Part shown: one piece after another, positions 3,255 through 8,822 of the stretch
Layout: the number at the start of each line of letters is the position of its first letter
Numbering within the stretch: the first letter of the stretch is position 1
From: a virus
IMG/VR virus record: IMGVR_UViG_3300012936_000116
Location: 1 to 28,868 of that record
Direction: 5' to 3' (one strand)
Length of the DNA: 28,868 bases
Notes under the pieces: model-generated
The model's database searches: none
What the model was told of the DNA's origin: nothing
The model's input: the letters and a program-made list of their open reading frames with translations, nothing else
Made by a program: the position numbers and the translations under genes

Positions 3255-3674
3255 ATGACTTGGACATACCAAGGTAAACCCGTAGAGGAAATACCAGAAC
3301 AATTTATCGGATTTGTTTATATCATCACCAATCTGACTAATGGCAAAAAGTATATAGGCAAAAAACTATCGCAATTTAAAAAAACAAGGCCACCTTTAAA
3401 AGGCAAAAAGCGTAAACGAAGATCACTAATTGAAAGCGATTGGCGTGAGTATTGGGGATCATCCGATAATTTACTAGAAGACGTTAAAAACTTAGGCACA
3501 GAAAACTTTACTAGAGAAATCTTATATTTTTGCACAACTAGAGGACAATTGTCTTATCTAGAAGCTAAAGAACAGTTTGACAGAGAAGTTTTACTTACAG
3601 ATGAATACTACAATGGCATAATAAACGTCCGTGTGGGCGGTTCTAAGGCACTTACTGAATCTTTAAAAAATTAA
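3255..3674 (+). CDS. GIY-YIG family endonuclease (free-standing, homing-type)
   Basis: This 139-residue protein carries the GIY-YIG core as GFVYIITNLTNGKKYIGKK (residues 19-37): the FVY block, then YIG at 33-35. A Lys/Arg-rich stretch follows, then ESDWREYWGSS, a block seen in T4-like phage versions of this family. A Glu-containing helix (LEAKEQFD) supplies a plausible metal-binding acidic residue. Such proteins nick or cut DNA and often promote spread of themselves or of neighbouring introns. It lies directly upstream of an RNA with group I intron features, which may be its partner. There is no C-terminal DNA-binding module as in I-TevI, so target specificity cannot be guessed. Confidence 0.85.
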   Translation: MTWTYQGKPVEEIPEQFIGFVYIITNLTNGKKYIGKKLSQFKKTRPPLKGKKRKRRSLIESDWREYWGSSDNLLEDVKNLGTENFTREILYFCTTRGQLSYLEAKEQFDREVLLTDEYYNGIINVRVGGSKALTESLKN

Positions 3675-3680
3675 TATACC

Positions 3681-3990
3681 CCCTCTATGAAAAGCATTGA
3701 GGAAACAATATTCGTATTGTCAACGGAACTTGCTGGGGGAACCAAACCAAATGAGTGGGCAATCCTGAGCCATTGGATCCCACGGGTATTTCCGAAACAG
3801 TAGTCGTTATTGCGTTTCGGTAGCCTGCGTTTTAAGCGGCGTATAAAGGGGTACAGCAAAACCGCCTCTGCCTTATATAAGGTTGCGCTATAACGATGCA
3901 CCTGATTGCTGGGGTAATGACCTATCAATTTTTTTTTGCACTTGGCCGTAAGCAGGCTAAGTGCGACTGAATTACCAGGGTAATAACTAA
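3681..3990 (+). ncRNA. Group I intron-like structured RNA (core or remnant)
   Basis: This non-coding stretch is visibly GC-richer than its flanks. It contains GGGCAATCCTGAGCCA (3757-3772), the P4/P5/P6-side signature of group I introns such as those in tRNA-Leu(UAA). Pairings I can trace by eye are: a hairpin 3682-3689/3695-3702; a UUCG-capped stem 3705-3710/3715-3720; P3-like CGGAAC 3724-3729 with GTTTCG 3814-3819; P4-like 3732-3738 with 3764-3770 (one mismatch); P8-like 3820-3833 with 3858-3871; P7-like TCGTTAT 3804-3810 with ATAACGA 3890-3896; and a distal 10-bp hairpin 3938-3947/3955-3964 inside GGTAAT/ATTACC (3913-3918/3971-3976). P3 and P7 would form the expected pseudoknot. No canonical P1 U-G splice site and no interrupted host gene is apparent, so splicing is uncertain. 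Boundaries are approximate. Confidence 0.65.
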
Positions 3991-4010
3991 TCATATATAA
4001 AATGTTTATT

Positions 4011-4064: not shown

Positions 4065-4301
4065 TTAATACGTTTTAGTATTACCTTTTTTCAAACTTTG
4101 TGCAATCTTTTCTTGTTTATCATTCATACTCTGAATAAATTCTTCGACAAAATAGTAAGGACTATTCCAAATGTCTTGTAAGCTAAATGCGCCTTCGCTG
4201 TATAAGATTGTGTCGTAGACTAATTTACGTAGTTGTCTTGCTTGAGTACTAACATCTTCGATAACTATATCTATGTCATTCGATTGTCGTAGTTGTGCGT
4301 G
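4065..4301 (-). CDS. -1 frame extension of gp26 (gp51-position, tail chaperone C-terminal part)
   Basis: This reading frame has no ATG, GTG or TTG near its beginning but is open straight through the 3' end of gp26 in the -1 frame. From the run of nine T's it continues with 78 codons starting HAQLRQSNDIDIVIEDV and ending KKGNTKTY, then TAA at 4065-4067. The sequence looks like protein: a charged helix, an aromatic SPYYFVEEF segment, then an amphipathic Lys-rich end. A -1 slip on TTT TTT in gp26 would give a fusion of about 352 residues. The position matches gp51 beside gp26 in T4-like phages, but similarity to T4 gp51 cannot be confirmed by eye. The layout copies the G/GT tail chaperone frameshift of lambda-like phages. 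Confidence 0.75.
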   Translation of the reverse strand, partial: HAQLRQSNDIDIVIEDVSTQARQLRKLVYDTILYSEGAFSLQDIWNSPYYFVEEFIQSMNDKQEKIAQSLKKGNTKTY

Positions 4302-5122
4302 AAAAAAAAAGCTGGGTTATACTCAATAGGTGCTTTAAAATCTTCTTCACAACTTGTACATGTAAATGTAAACTCTTTTTGTACGCCATTAGTATTGAGT
4401 GTTGAAGTATGTTCTTTGATAATACTCATTGTTTTAGCGTCTGTATTACTCAGCCATTTTGTTATACTATCCATATCAGTTACTGTGACATCGTCTGGTG
4501 TTTTAATTTGGCTAATACTATCTGCTAGTACAATAAGTGTTGCGGCAGTTGTTTTCTCTAAACTATCTCTCATAATATCTTTAGCTTGTTGAGGATCCAT
4601 TCCTTCATTAATTGCCGCCGCTAATCTGACACTTTCCGTTGTTTTAACTGCACCTGCATTAACACTTGCAAGTGAGTTAGGTTTAAATGTAATTTGTAAA
4701 CCGTTTTCTAATTCAACTTCAAGCGGGTGTTCTTGTAGTTCTTTTACTCTTGCTAGTAAGTTTTTAAGTTCAATTGCATATTGACTTTGTTTTTGACATG
4801 AAGGACATGTTCCTGCAATGTTTAGTTCGCCGCTATGCTGTCCAACTTTAGCCGCAAGTAAAAGTACTTCAACGTCTGGGACAACTACTTCATATGGATC
4901 TGCAATATCAGGAGCAATACTTTGAATAACTTCGTACAATGCTTCACCGTTGTACAGTGTATCTGGTATTTTAAGTAAAAGTTCATCTTTTACACTCATC
5001 GGATATACACCGATTTCTCCATCAGCAGTTAATTTTGGCGGGTTTTTGTACCATCTACCGCCACTAGGTAGCTTTACATAGATTTCTTTTGTCCTATAAT
5101 AGCTGGAAAGTGGATCTGACAC
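4271..5122 (-). CDS. 26: Baseplate hub / tail assembly protein gp26-like
   Basis: A 283-residue protein starting at GTG (5120-5122) behind TAGGAG. The start (MSDPLSSYYRTKEIYVKLPS) and the mid segment with DELLLKIPDTLYNGEA follow the pattern of T4-like marine phage gp26. Two CxxC pairs, CPSC (C106, C109) and CTSC (C255, C258), suggest a zinc site joining distant parts of the chain. T4 gp26 is annotated as a baseplate hub protein needed for assembly. It ends NPAFFF followed by nine unconserved-looking residues, and the FFF is encoded by the T9 slippery run. It is transcribed away from the candidate tape measure gene. Confidence 0.8.
   Translation of the reverse strand: MSDPLSSYYRTKEIYVKLPSGGRWYKNPPKLTADGEIGVYPMSVKDELLLKIPDTLYNGEALYEVIQSIAPDIADPYEVVVPDVEVLLLAAKVGQHSGELNIAGTCPSCQKQSQYAIELKNLLARVKELQEHPLEVELENGLQITFKPNSLASVNAGAVKTTESVRLAAAINEGMDPQQAKDIMRDSLEKTTAATLIVLADSISQIKTPDDVTVTDMDSITKWLSNTDAKTMSIIKEHTSTLNTNGVQKEFTFTCTSCEEDFKAPIEYNPAFFFTHNYDNRMT
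4302..4310 (-). promoter_or_regulatory. Slippery T9 run, candidate -1 programmed frameshift site
   Basis: On the minus strand gp26 reads GCT TTT TTT TTC ACG. The heptamer T TTT TTT sits in the correct zero frame for tandem -1 slippage (X XXY YYZ pattern). The zero-frame stop comes about ten codons later, and the -1 frame is open for 78 codons. I saw no obvious downstream pseudoknot. Confidence 0.7.
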
Positions 5123-5179: not shown

Positions 5180-7078
5180 TTGGCAACTATTAATATTGCA
5201 TTCGGCGGACAAAACATTGGTGTAGAAATTCCAGACATTGCTCTGGAAGTCACTATGCAAGATGTGCTGACTGAAGCAAGACAACAAACAGCCGCACTAT
5301 CAGGACTTGCACAAAAGTTTGGCATTGAACTTGGTGAAGTAAAGCAATCTGTTGACTCTAGTGGCGACCAAGTAACTACCGCTGTAGACAACAATACAAA
5401 AGAAACAAACAGACTTGGTAATGCTATGAGTGGATTAACTCAAGGTATGAACAATGTACAAAATGCCGCTATGGGATTAAAAGGTGATGAAAAAATGTCA
5501 TCGCTTGTTAGTGGAGCCGCTAATGCATTAGGCTTAGGAATGATCGGCGCACAAGTTGGTAGTTTATTTGGTATTATGGAAGAGTTTGGTGCTTCTATGG
5601 GAGCATTGCGTAGAGTTGGTACAGGATACTTAGAAAATTTACAAGACTTACGTGGAGGTGCCGCAGAGGTTGGCTTAGGTCTTGAACGCTTTGGTCAAAT
5701 TGTAACAGAGAATGGTGTTTCAGTTCGTGCATTAGGAAAAAATACTACCGATGGTGCAATGAACTTAATTACTATGAATAAAGAGTTGCGTAATGCTACT
5801 CGTAATGCAGGCTTCTTTGGTATGAGTAGTCAAGAAATGACACTTGCACTTGTTGACGAAGCAGAGATTAGACGTAGAATACATGGACTTAATGTAACAG
5901 ATGTGAATCAAAAACGATCAATGGTCCAAGCAGTTGCTGAACAATTAAAAATGAACGAAGCAATGGCTAAACTTACTGGTCAAGATATTAGAGATAGAAT
6001 CAAAGCAAGTCAAACATTCAGGAGTGATGCAACTAATGCCGCTATATTATCACAATTAAATGGTGATCAAGCAGTAGCGGCAAAAAGTGCAGTTGAAGCA
6101 CTTAGCGCATTAGGTCCAACATTACAAGGTCCTGCACAACAAGCTATTACTAATATACTCGGCGGCTTTGATATGTTTGCTAACAATGAAGAATTCGCAC
6201 AGTTTGCACAAATGGCACAGGCAGCTGGTGTTGATGTTCGTGGAGCGTTTAGTAGTTTAGCACAACAAATAGAAGAAGGTGGTGATGCCGCTACACTTAA
6301 TGCAACTGTATTAGATATTACTCGTTCTCTTAAACAAATTGATCCACAAATGCTTATTACACAATCTCTTGCTGGTAATGCAGGTGCAGGTTTAGTTTTA
6401 GAATCTAGAATGGAATCAGTAAGTGATGGTGCTGACTCATTTGCTACCAGTATTGAAAAAATTACAAAGTCAATTGAAGATCTAAACGAAGCAATTACAG
6501 ATGGTGAGACAGGATTAGCTGGAACACAAGCTGAAATGGAAAGAGGCGCCGCACAGTTTAGAGATCAACTAATGGATTCTCTATTAAAGTCAATGGGTGC
6601 AGGAGACTTAGCTACATCAGCTGATGGGTTTAACAAATTTGTAACTGGTATGGCTAATATAACATCTAATCAAGGATTTAAAACATTTGTAGATGAATTA
6701 ACAAACTTAGTTACACTAACATCTGGTGCTCAAGCAATTGGAAGAATGATTGCAGGTGAACAAGCAGATGCAGGACAATTAGCATTTTTAGCGGCGGCTG
6801 GATTAGATGCCGCTGGTTTAGAAAAATTTGCGGCTGCCGCTAGAGTGGGAGGTTTAGCTTTATCAGCTGATGATATTGCCGCTTCTCTAACTAATTTAGC
6901 ACCAGTTTTAGGTTCTGCATTTTCAGGCGCACTAGAGCCGTTTAAAGATGCGGCAGGTAATTTAAAAGTAGCTATACAAAATTTATTAAATGAACCTGAG
7001 GTAACTTCTTCTAGAAATGAGCAGCCTGACTCTTTCCCTCAAAGTACCACTTCTAATCGTGGGCCAACAATAACATAA
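5180..7078 (+). CDS. Candidate tail tape measure protein (gp29-like)
   Basis: A 632-residue, Ala/Gln/Leu/Gly-rich, mostly helical protein. It has hydrophobic stretches near residues 105-150 (GLGMIGAQVGSLFGIM) and Ala-rich helices around 530-600, the usual look of tape measure proteins. T4 gp29, the tape measure, has 590 residues, so the size is right. No ATG is available; TTG at 5180 begins MATINIAFGGQ and follows a late promoter and a weak AAGTGAG site. The next in-frame ATG would remove 26 residues. Its neighbour, divergently transcribed, is gp26 with a frameshift extension, which fits the usual chaperone-tape measure pairing. The alternative is another large virion protein of unknown role. 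Confidence 0.6.
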   Translation: MATINIAFGGQNIGVEIPDIALEVTMQDVLTEARQQTAALSGLAQKFGIELGEVKQSVDSSGDQVTTAVDNNTKETNRLGNAMSGLTQGMNNVQNAAMGLKGDEKMSSLVSGAANALGLGMIGAQVGSLFGIMEEFGASMGALRRVGTGYLENLQDLRGGAAEVGLGLERFGQIVTENGVSVRALGKNTTDGAMNLITMNKELRNATRNAGFFGMSSQEMTLALVDEAEIRRRIHGLNVTDVNQKRSMVQAVAEQLKMNEAMAKLTGQDIRDRIKASQTFRSDATNAAILSQLNGDQAVAAKSAVEALSALGPTLQGPAQQAITNILGGFDMFANNEEFAQFAQMAQAAGVDVRGAFSSLAQQIEEGGDAATLNATVLDITRSLKQIDPQMLITQSLAGNAGAGLVLESRMESVSDGADSFATSIEKITKSIEDLNEAITDGETGLAGTQAEMERGAAQFRDQLMDSLLKSMGAGDLATSADGFNKFVTGMANITSNQGFKTFVDELTNLVTLTSGAQAIGRMIAGEQADAGQLAFLAAAGLDAAGLEKFAAAARVGGLALSADDIAASLTNLAPVLGSAFSGALEPFKDAAGNLKVAIQNLLNEPEVTSSRNEQPDSFPQSTTSNRGPTIT

Positions 7079-7136: not shown

Positions 7137-8822
7137 ATGAGTTGGAAAAAACATTTTACAGTATACCAGGGTCAAAATACAGAAGCTAAACCTAGCACTG
7201 CTAGTCGCTTTCAAAGTTGGTTACCAGAAGTATACAGTGGTCAACCTAACCGTGTAGAAAGATATGCACAGTATGACCAAATGGACATGGACAGCGAAAT
7301 CAACGCCGCCCTTGACATTATTAGTGAATTCAGTACACAATTAGACGAAACAAATCAACTTCCCTTTTCTGTTAACTTAAACGGTGATACAACAGAAAGT
7401 GAAGCAAAAATCTTGGAACAGTCGCTACGTCAGTGGTGTAACTTACAAGATTGGGATAGACGTTTGTTTAAAACGTTTCGTAATGTGATTAAGTACGGAG
7501 ATCAATTTTTTATTAGAGATCCAGAAACATGGGAATTATATTATGTTAACCCTGTTGATGTTACTAAAGTTATTGTCAATGAAGCAGAAGGCAAAGAGCC
7601 AGAACAATACATTGTTAAAAACTTAGACTTAAACATGAAAACAAAAACTGTAAGTGAGCCAGTACAACATGCAAACACTTATAGTACTGTTAATAGTATG
7701 GCAAGAGGTCAGACAATTGATCGTCAAGGTTATGGTGCAGGCGCAGGTAACTATGCTAACAGTGGTGTTGGTAACATTCAAGAATATAATGTAGATGCTA
7801 CACATGTTATACATACAGCATTAACAGAAGGTATGGACAGCGATTATCCTTTTGGTGCTAGTATTTTAGATCCAATTTTTAAAACATATAAACAAAAAGA
7901 ACTATTAGAAGATAGTATTATTATCTACAGAGTACAACGTGCTCCAGAGCGTAGAGTGTTTTATGTTGATGTTGGTAACATGCCAGCAAACAAAGCTATG
8001 GGTTTTGTTGAACGTGTTAAAAATGAAATTCATCAAAAACGTATTCCAAGTAAAACAGGTGGCGGTACAACTATTATGGATGCCGCATATAACCCACTAT
8101 CAATTATGGAAGACTACTTCTTTGCACAAACTGCTGAAGGCAGAGGTAGTAAAGTTGAAGTGTTGCCAGGCGGTGAAAACTTAGGACAAATTGATGACTT
8201 GCGTTACTTCACAAACAAAATGCTAAGAGCATTACGTGTTCCTAGTTCATACCTACCAACAGGTCCAGAAGATGGAACTGCAACTTATGTTGATGGTAGA
8301 GTTGGAACAGCATATATTCAAGAATATAGATTTAACCAATACTGTCAACGATTACAAAAAATTATAGCACCTGTATTTGATAAAGAGTTTAAACTATTCT
8401 TAAAGAATAGAGGTATTACAATTGATACAAGTATTTTTGATATAAGTTTTGTTAACCCACAGAGCTTTAGTCAGTATAAAGAGATTGAAATCCATGCCGC
8501 ACGTGCTAATGTATTTGGTGGATTAGATGGTTCGCCATATTTGAGCAAACGATTCTTGTTAAGCAAGTACTTAGGCTTAACTGAAGAAGAAATTCTAGAA
8601 AATGAACGTATGTGGATGGAAGAAAACAAATCAGGACAAACGCCAGAAGCAGATAGTCAACCTGGACTAGGTAGCGTAGGTGTACGTAGCTTTGATGTAG
8701 ATACAGGCGATGGTGTTCCTGATGTAGGTAATTTGGAAACAGGTGATACTGAAAGCGGCGAATCTCCGATATCAGGAGCAGAAACTGCAACAACACCAGC
8801 GGCACCTGGAGGAGATACATAA
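7137..8822 (+). CDS. 20: Portal vertex protein gp20
   Basis: A 561-residue protein, close to T4 gp20 (524). The start region (SRFQSWLPEVYSG, then MDMDSEINAALDIISEFSTQ), the GDQFFIRDPETWELYYVNP block, the IYRVQRAPERRVFYVDVGN helix-strand region, and the VEVLPGGENLGQIDDLRYF and PSSYLP blocks are standard features of T4-like portals. The dodecameric portal forms the unique head vertex, nucleates prohead assembly and is the DNA channel. The last 60 residues are a Gly/Thr/Asp-rich flexible tail. The gene opens the head cluster behind a sigma70/late promoter pair. Its stop overlaps the next start (TAATG). Confidence 0.97.
   Translation: MSWKKHFTVYQGQNTEAKPSTASRFQSWLPEVYSGQPNRVERYAQYDQMDMDSEINAALDIISEFSTQLDETNQLPFSVNLNGDTTESEAKILEQSLRQWCNLQDWDRRLFKTFRNVIKYGDQFFIRDPETWELYYVNPVDVTKVIVNEAEGKEPEQYIVKNLDLNMKTKTVSEPVQHANTYSTVNSMARGQTIDRQGYGAGAGNYANSGVGNIQEYNVDATHVIHTALTEGMDSDYPFGASILDPIFKTYKQKELLEDSIIIYRVQRAPERRVFYVDVGNMPANKAMGFVERVKNEIHQKRIPSKTGGGTTIMDAAYNPLSIMEDYFFAQTAEGRGSKVEVLPGGENLGQIDDLRYFTNKMLRALRVPSSYLPTGPEDGTATYVDGRVGTAYIQEYRFNQYCQRLQKIIAPVFDKEFKLFLKNRGITIDTSIFDISFVNPQSFSQYKEIEIHAARANVFGGLDGSPYLSKRFLLSKYLGLTEEEILENERMWMEENKSGQTPEADSQPGLGSVGVRSFDVDTGDGVPDVGNLETGDTESGESPISGAETATTPAAPGGDT

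Follow-up and report, generated by a model that had tools for sequence, protein, structure and literature searches.

The gp26-like gene of this virus ends shortly after a run of nine Ts, and a second frame that lacks a nearby start codon lies open across the run. Does one gene here yield two proteins through a programmed -1 frameshift? In the window, by which we mean the whole 28,868-nucleotide stretch of DNA that was analysed (an IMG/VR virus contig), the locus is very probably a lambda G/GT-like tail assembly chaperone (TAC) gene of an uncultivated T4-like phage of marine/jumbo type, encoding TAC-N and a frameshifted TAC-NC. Its parts are as follows.

4271..5122, minus strand: TAC-N, the gp26-like zero-frame ORF of 283 aa, with a GTG start at 5122, assigned by matches to PF12322 and phrog_150.
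4302..4310, minus strand: T9 slippery run, with T TTT TTT at 4310-4304 and T TTT TTC at 4307-4301, both in phase.
4065..4316, minus strand: -1 frame ORF (TAC-C domain) of 84 codons, about 79 of them after the shift, recognized by selection, homology and predicted fold.

The zero-frame protein terminates in ...NPA FFF THNYDNRMT*, and its stop codon occupies 4273-4271 on the minus strand. The codons near its end are AAC CCA GCT TTT TTT TTC ACG. The run reads AGC TTTTTTTTT CAC and contains exactly nine Ts (4310-4302), within which the two slippery heptamers overlap. In the -1 frame, positions 4316 to 4068 are free of stops, and a stop codon follows at 4067-4065. Of the 84 codons in this frame, number 64 is the first ATG; a TTG at codon 75 is the next that could serve as a start, and GTG is absent. 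The preliminary description had reported the FFF encoded by T9, the in-register heptamer, the open and startless -1 frame and the CxxC pairs of the gp26-like protein. All of these details hold on the minus strand, and the pairs are CPSC (residues 106-109) and CTSC (residues 255-258).

The zero-frame protein belongs to the T4_baseplate family (PF12322), which it matches at E = 2.7e-14 with 53.8 bits against a curated cut-off of 24.5, and it also matches the baseplate hub family phrog_150 (E = 2.2e-18). Its AlphaFold model (pLDDT 86) is confident up to FFF and disordered beyond, and its fold matches in BFVD are predicted T4-like baseplate hub proteins (E = 7e-25). The -1 domain is predicted to form a four-helix fold (pLDDT 81) and is homologous to the -1 domains of jumbo phages (hhalign E = 4e-10). 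As the sole query it found no relatives in phage records by tblastn and no family match. Sequence and fold searches of the PDB with TAC-N and the -1 domain returned no solved tail chaperone and no match at E <= 0.001.

The TAC gene lies beside a portal gene and a large ORF, as it does in jumbo phages.

5180..7078, plus strand: large ORF of 632 aa, a candidate tape measure protein by its position between the TAC gene and the portal gene.
7137..8822, plus strand: T4-like portal protein gp20 (PF07230, E = 1.3e-111).

The 632-aa ORF is kept in the window clade at about 40% identity and is transcribed divergently from the TAC gene. It matched no family profile, tape-measure families included. The neighbor of the TAC gene is annotated as a tape measure protein in HTVC008M and as tape-measure-like in phiM12. 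The preliminary description had likened the locus to the G/GT layout next to the tape measure; the frameshift layout stands, but the tape-measure label is less secure, given a divergent ORF without a family match whose name derives from position.

Another pair of features adjoins the TAC gene on its other side.

3255-3674, plus strand: SegE-like GIY-YIG protein gene (PF19835), identified by profile match.
About 3675-4005, plus strand: structured RNA of about 330 nt, identified by covariation.

In the window and in related loci (L213-L274), the RNA lies between the SegE-like gene and the end of the TAC -1 ORF. Its covariation is extensive: 97.9% of cells are paired and 17 pairs show double changes, a result reached in 0 of 500 shuffles. 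There is no match in Rfam. Nucleotide identity of the RNA is 77-80% where the neighboring proteins have about 42-60%. The core motif occurs in 62 viral contigs, in 49 of which TAC-N lies within 3 kb in a fixed orientation. A SegE-like gene is found upstream on the same strand in all 48 loci with at least 1.2 kb of upstream sequence, and about 155-176 nt separate its end from the core motif (L213-L274). The nuclease-like gene and the structured RNA are possibly a conserved pair, or possibly share only synteny.

The slip site is conserved among relatives of the window. The nearest named relatives are the jumbo phages PA5oct/Cassandra, Atu_ph07, 121Q, BF and XaC1. All five carry T6 at the same Phe codons followed by a -1 ORF of about 75 codons, and the sequence similarity of this ORF extends to codons ahead of any ATG. 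Viral contigs scanned with an alignment query yielded 74 loci, and 57 including the window after removal of duplicates and one truncated contig; a single-protein query, unlike the alignment query, found no matches. The in-phase heptamer and a -1 ORF of 70-85 codons are present in 57/57 of these distinct window/jumbo-type loci. A wider window clade was gathered through the neighboring RNA element. The site and the long -1 ORF occur in all 35 of its distinct loci, about six of which were already counted among the earlier contigs; the run is exactly T9 in 31 and T6 in four.

The cyanophage scan was anchored on gp26 of P-SSM2 and gave 68 scorable distinct loci, 67 of which combine T TTT TTC with a -1 ORF of 58-65 codons. 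In the exception, contig L165 (2640-2760), TAC-N and TAC-C are fused in frame, with TCTTTTTGG where the others have T6C. Either the frameshift was lost naturally here or the contig was misassembled. In-phase sites are also present in P-SSM2, Syn9, S-PM2, HTVC008M (T8), phiM12 (T7), phiW-14, RaK2 and Moby. The heptamer search covered in-phase sites near the ORF end; among the aligned sequences, the run coincides with the same conserved Phe codons. The preliminary description had suggested examining related phages for the T run and the -1 frame, and both are kept, the run at the same codons, across more than 150 distinct relatives.

Single-copy PF12322 genes carry the slip site, with the exception of Vi01-type phages and RM378. 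Ackermannviridae (Vi01, phiEa2809; L022, L199, L212) and Vibrio D506 (L210) keep the -1 TAC-C domain without a canonical heptamer. Two Ackermannviridae have ATTTTCATTTAA in common at the stop. Rhodothermus phage RM378 (L031) has a T7 run that is followed by an extension ORF in the +1 frame, not the -1 frame.

Codon and substitution patterns indicate that the extension is coding. In the -1 frame, dN/dS stays below 1 for all pairs tested, those from the window clade among them, so this proposed check points to purifying selection. The pN/pS of the -1 domain is 0.27-0.61 in the window clade, 0.08-0.26 in jumbo phages and 0.07-0.33 in cyanophages. Across the extension, both remaining frames are interrupted by stops in all loci (57/57 window/jumbo-type, 67/67 cyanophage). 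Because the run is conserved, the other frames are interrupted and the -1 frame has a dN/dS below 1, the T9 run and its -1 ORF are not a chance combination. The codon preceding FF ends in T in 96% of jumbo/window loci and 100% of cyanophage loci, where codon usage predicts 60-64%. The Phe pair is TTT TTC in 67/67 cyanophages, though TTT makes up only about 70% of Phe codons. The protein alignment is unbroken through the junction, with FF and a Leu shortly downstream retained. These comparisons establish, at the sequence level, that both frames are coding and under selection and that the site is conserved in position and phase. Two marks of a frameshifted chaperone gene are found here: a conserved in-phase heptamer at the 3' end of a short ORF, and an overlapping -1 ORF that is under protein-level selection and needs no start of its own.

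The preliminary description had further suggested that gp26 and gp51 of marine phages are one frameshifted gene, and the cyanophage and related genomes bear this out. In P-SSM2, S-PM2, Syn9, HTVC008M and phiM12, the match to gp51 (phrog_634) is the -1 frame that overlaps the end of gp26. In P-SSM2 (L195) and S-PM2 (L196), the annotated gp51 starts at an ATG past the slip site and appears as a gene of its own, a 'baseplate hub assembly catalyst'. These two phages share the gene pair and the site with the window; they differ from it in having T6 rather than T9, a C-domain of other sequence and an annotation as two genes. The window -1 domain has no detectable similarity to the gp51-type C-domain (phrog_634), with hhalign E values of 0.97 for the cyanophage domain and 0.66 for T4. 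Its link to the gp51 C-terminus is therefore positional.

T4 itself encodes two genes, whereas the single-gene arrangement is common to most of the T4-like phages examined. Both gp26 and gp51 match PF12322, and T4 gp26 ends in ...KEFFELL* with the codons GAG TTC TTT and no slippery site. T4 gp51 extends in frame past the PF12322 domain, and its C-terminus is homologous to the cyanophage -1 domain (phrog_634 E = 1.2e-23; hhalign E = 4e-5). Two in-frame copies and no poly-T heptamer were found in all four Straboviridae examined (T4, RB43, Aeromonas 31 and an Acinetobacter phage), and a single PF12322 copy in each of 14 other phages counted. Homologs that lack a T run and have the downstream part as a gene with its own proper start had been named beforehand as evidence against the frameshift. 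Such homologs exist in T4 and other Straboviridae, yet T4 gp51 corresponds to the whole fusion encoded in one frame and is compatible with the model. The pattern fits duplication of an ancestral frameshifted gene, after which one copy lost the site and the other was fused in frame. T4 apparently is derived in having two genes, a direction of change that follows from the distribution of the two arrangements and not from a tree.

We propose that normal translation would produce TAC-N (283 aa), and that a minority of ribosomes would slip back one base at T9, on T TTT TTT and/or T TTT TTC. The slipped ribosomes would read about 79 more codons and make TAC-NC of about 352 aa, whose extra helical domain may correspond to the T domain of lambda. 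If the lambda system is a guide, TAC-N could coat the tape measure protein and a few copies of TAC-NC could recruit tail-tube subunits. We infer slippage, its rate and the chaperone function for the window gene; all comparative evidence agrees with the first suggestion of a -1 frameshift that yields both a short chaperone and a fused one. Stimulators differ between the groups. An SD-like GGAGG lies about 10 nt upstream of the slippery site in 65/67 cyanophage loci, unlike in the window group, and is likely a -1 stimulator; stable RNA is predicted downstream of the site (mean z -2.6 in 34 sampled loci). An upstream Shine-Dalgarno-like stimulator was found in 1/57 window/jumbo-type loci, and no stable RNA structure was found downstream of the window site (z -0.7).

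The same fusion could arise without ribosomal slippage if RNA polymerase slipped on T9, yielding mRNA with one extra or two missing U. This is a live rival because T9 is fixed in most of the window clade, even if we consider it improbable: the exact T9 of 31/35 clade loci is longer than the T6 of jumbo and cyanophage relatives, and the ribosomal stimulators sought for the window were not found. Polymerase slippage operates in bacterial IS elements and in genes for type III secretion, and in E. coli the site U_UUU_UUU promotes shifting less strongly than A_AAA_AAG (PMC5009743). Against it, both heptamers are still in phase within T9, and the same architecture is present in T6 relatives. Since polymerases generally do not slip efficiently on runs of only 6 nt, the ancestral mode was probably ribosomal slippage. 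An ancestral T6 ribosomal site may, on a rather doubtful reading, have lengthened to an exact T9 at which polymerase slippage sets the ratio of short to long chaperone wholly or in part. If true, the recoding mechanism would have switched at a conserved tail gene.

Two further explanations dispense with recoding, and both were rejected as explanations of the -1 ORF. If ribosomes re-initiated, or translation were coupled, at the stop of the zero frame, the downstream frame would be a separate gene, as databases annotate it. This reading could draw on an ATG three codons past the site in many cyanophages and on the TAATG stop/start overlap in 121Q and BF. It is very unlikely, considering that the first -1 ATG of the window comes only at codon 64, that Syn9 and L191 lack the cyanophage ATG, that protein conservation reaches from the ATG upstream to the slip site and that the slippery codons are frozen beyond codon usage. 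A sequencing or assembly error might split one in-frame gene at a homopolymer, and in-frame fusions do exist in contig L165 and as T4 gp51; such an error is extremely improbable, since the phase and the exact run length recur in more than 150 distinct loci and also in finished genomes of named phages. Ribosomal -1 frameshifting at the T run is the reading we retain.

The arrangement resembles known systems to differing degrees. In lambda, -1 ribosomal slippage gives a short and a fused chaperone (PMC5009743). Like lambda gpG/gpGT, the window locus has a short ORF, a -1 site near its 3' end, an overlapping startless -1 ORF and a product of the tail assembly module; unlike lambda, it has a T9/T6 site, a larger N-part, two CxxC pairs and divergent orientation from the candidate tape measure gene. 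The likeness rests on arrangement, not on a sequence relation. T4 gp26/gp51 share family PF12322/phrog_150 and short and long forms with the window, but are two genes without a slippery site rather than one gene with T9, and a 2016 review by Atkins lists T4 as an exception to the conserved G-T frameshift (PMC5009743). The TAC locus of Vandenendeviridae (phage Adele) also has a poly-T motif at the end of TAC-N and a -1 ORF that is uninterrupted in all genomes; it differs from the window in its family and its invariant GTTTTT motif (PMC12846349).

The preliminary description knew of no firm account of such a frameshift in T4-like phages. This does not hold, since Vladimirov, Gautam and Davidson 2022 (Virology 566:9-15), as cited in PMC10885494 and PMC12846349, identified T4-like TAC genes. 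Citing that work, the PRFect paper (PMC10885494) describes T4-like phages that have a short gene alongside a fused one, and the 2025 Adele paper (PMC12846349) calls poly-T slippery sites in T4-like TAC-N genes known. According to these citing papers, both the principle of the frameshift and what these genes do in T4-like phages had already been published. Because they credit both the genes and the poly-T sites to that study, the window gene is a new example of a published system. The additions made here are the window clade, its exact T9 and the breadth of conservation.

Judged from sequence comparison, conserved recoding at the T run, with a short and a longer fused protein, is almost certainly common to T4-like phages of the ocean and to giant phages. 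Of the loci scored, L165 is the only cyanophage one to lack the frameshift site, and none from giant T4-related phages lacks it. What is annotated as 'gp51 baseplate hub assembly catalyst' in cyanophages would then be the second half of a fusion, as would the small ORF that follows the 'baseplate hub' gene in jumbo-phage annotations, and both are due for re-annotation.
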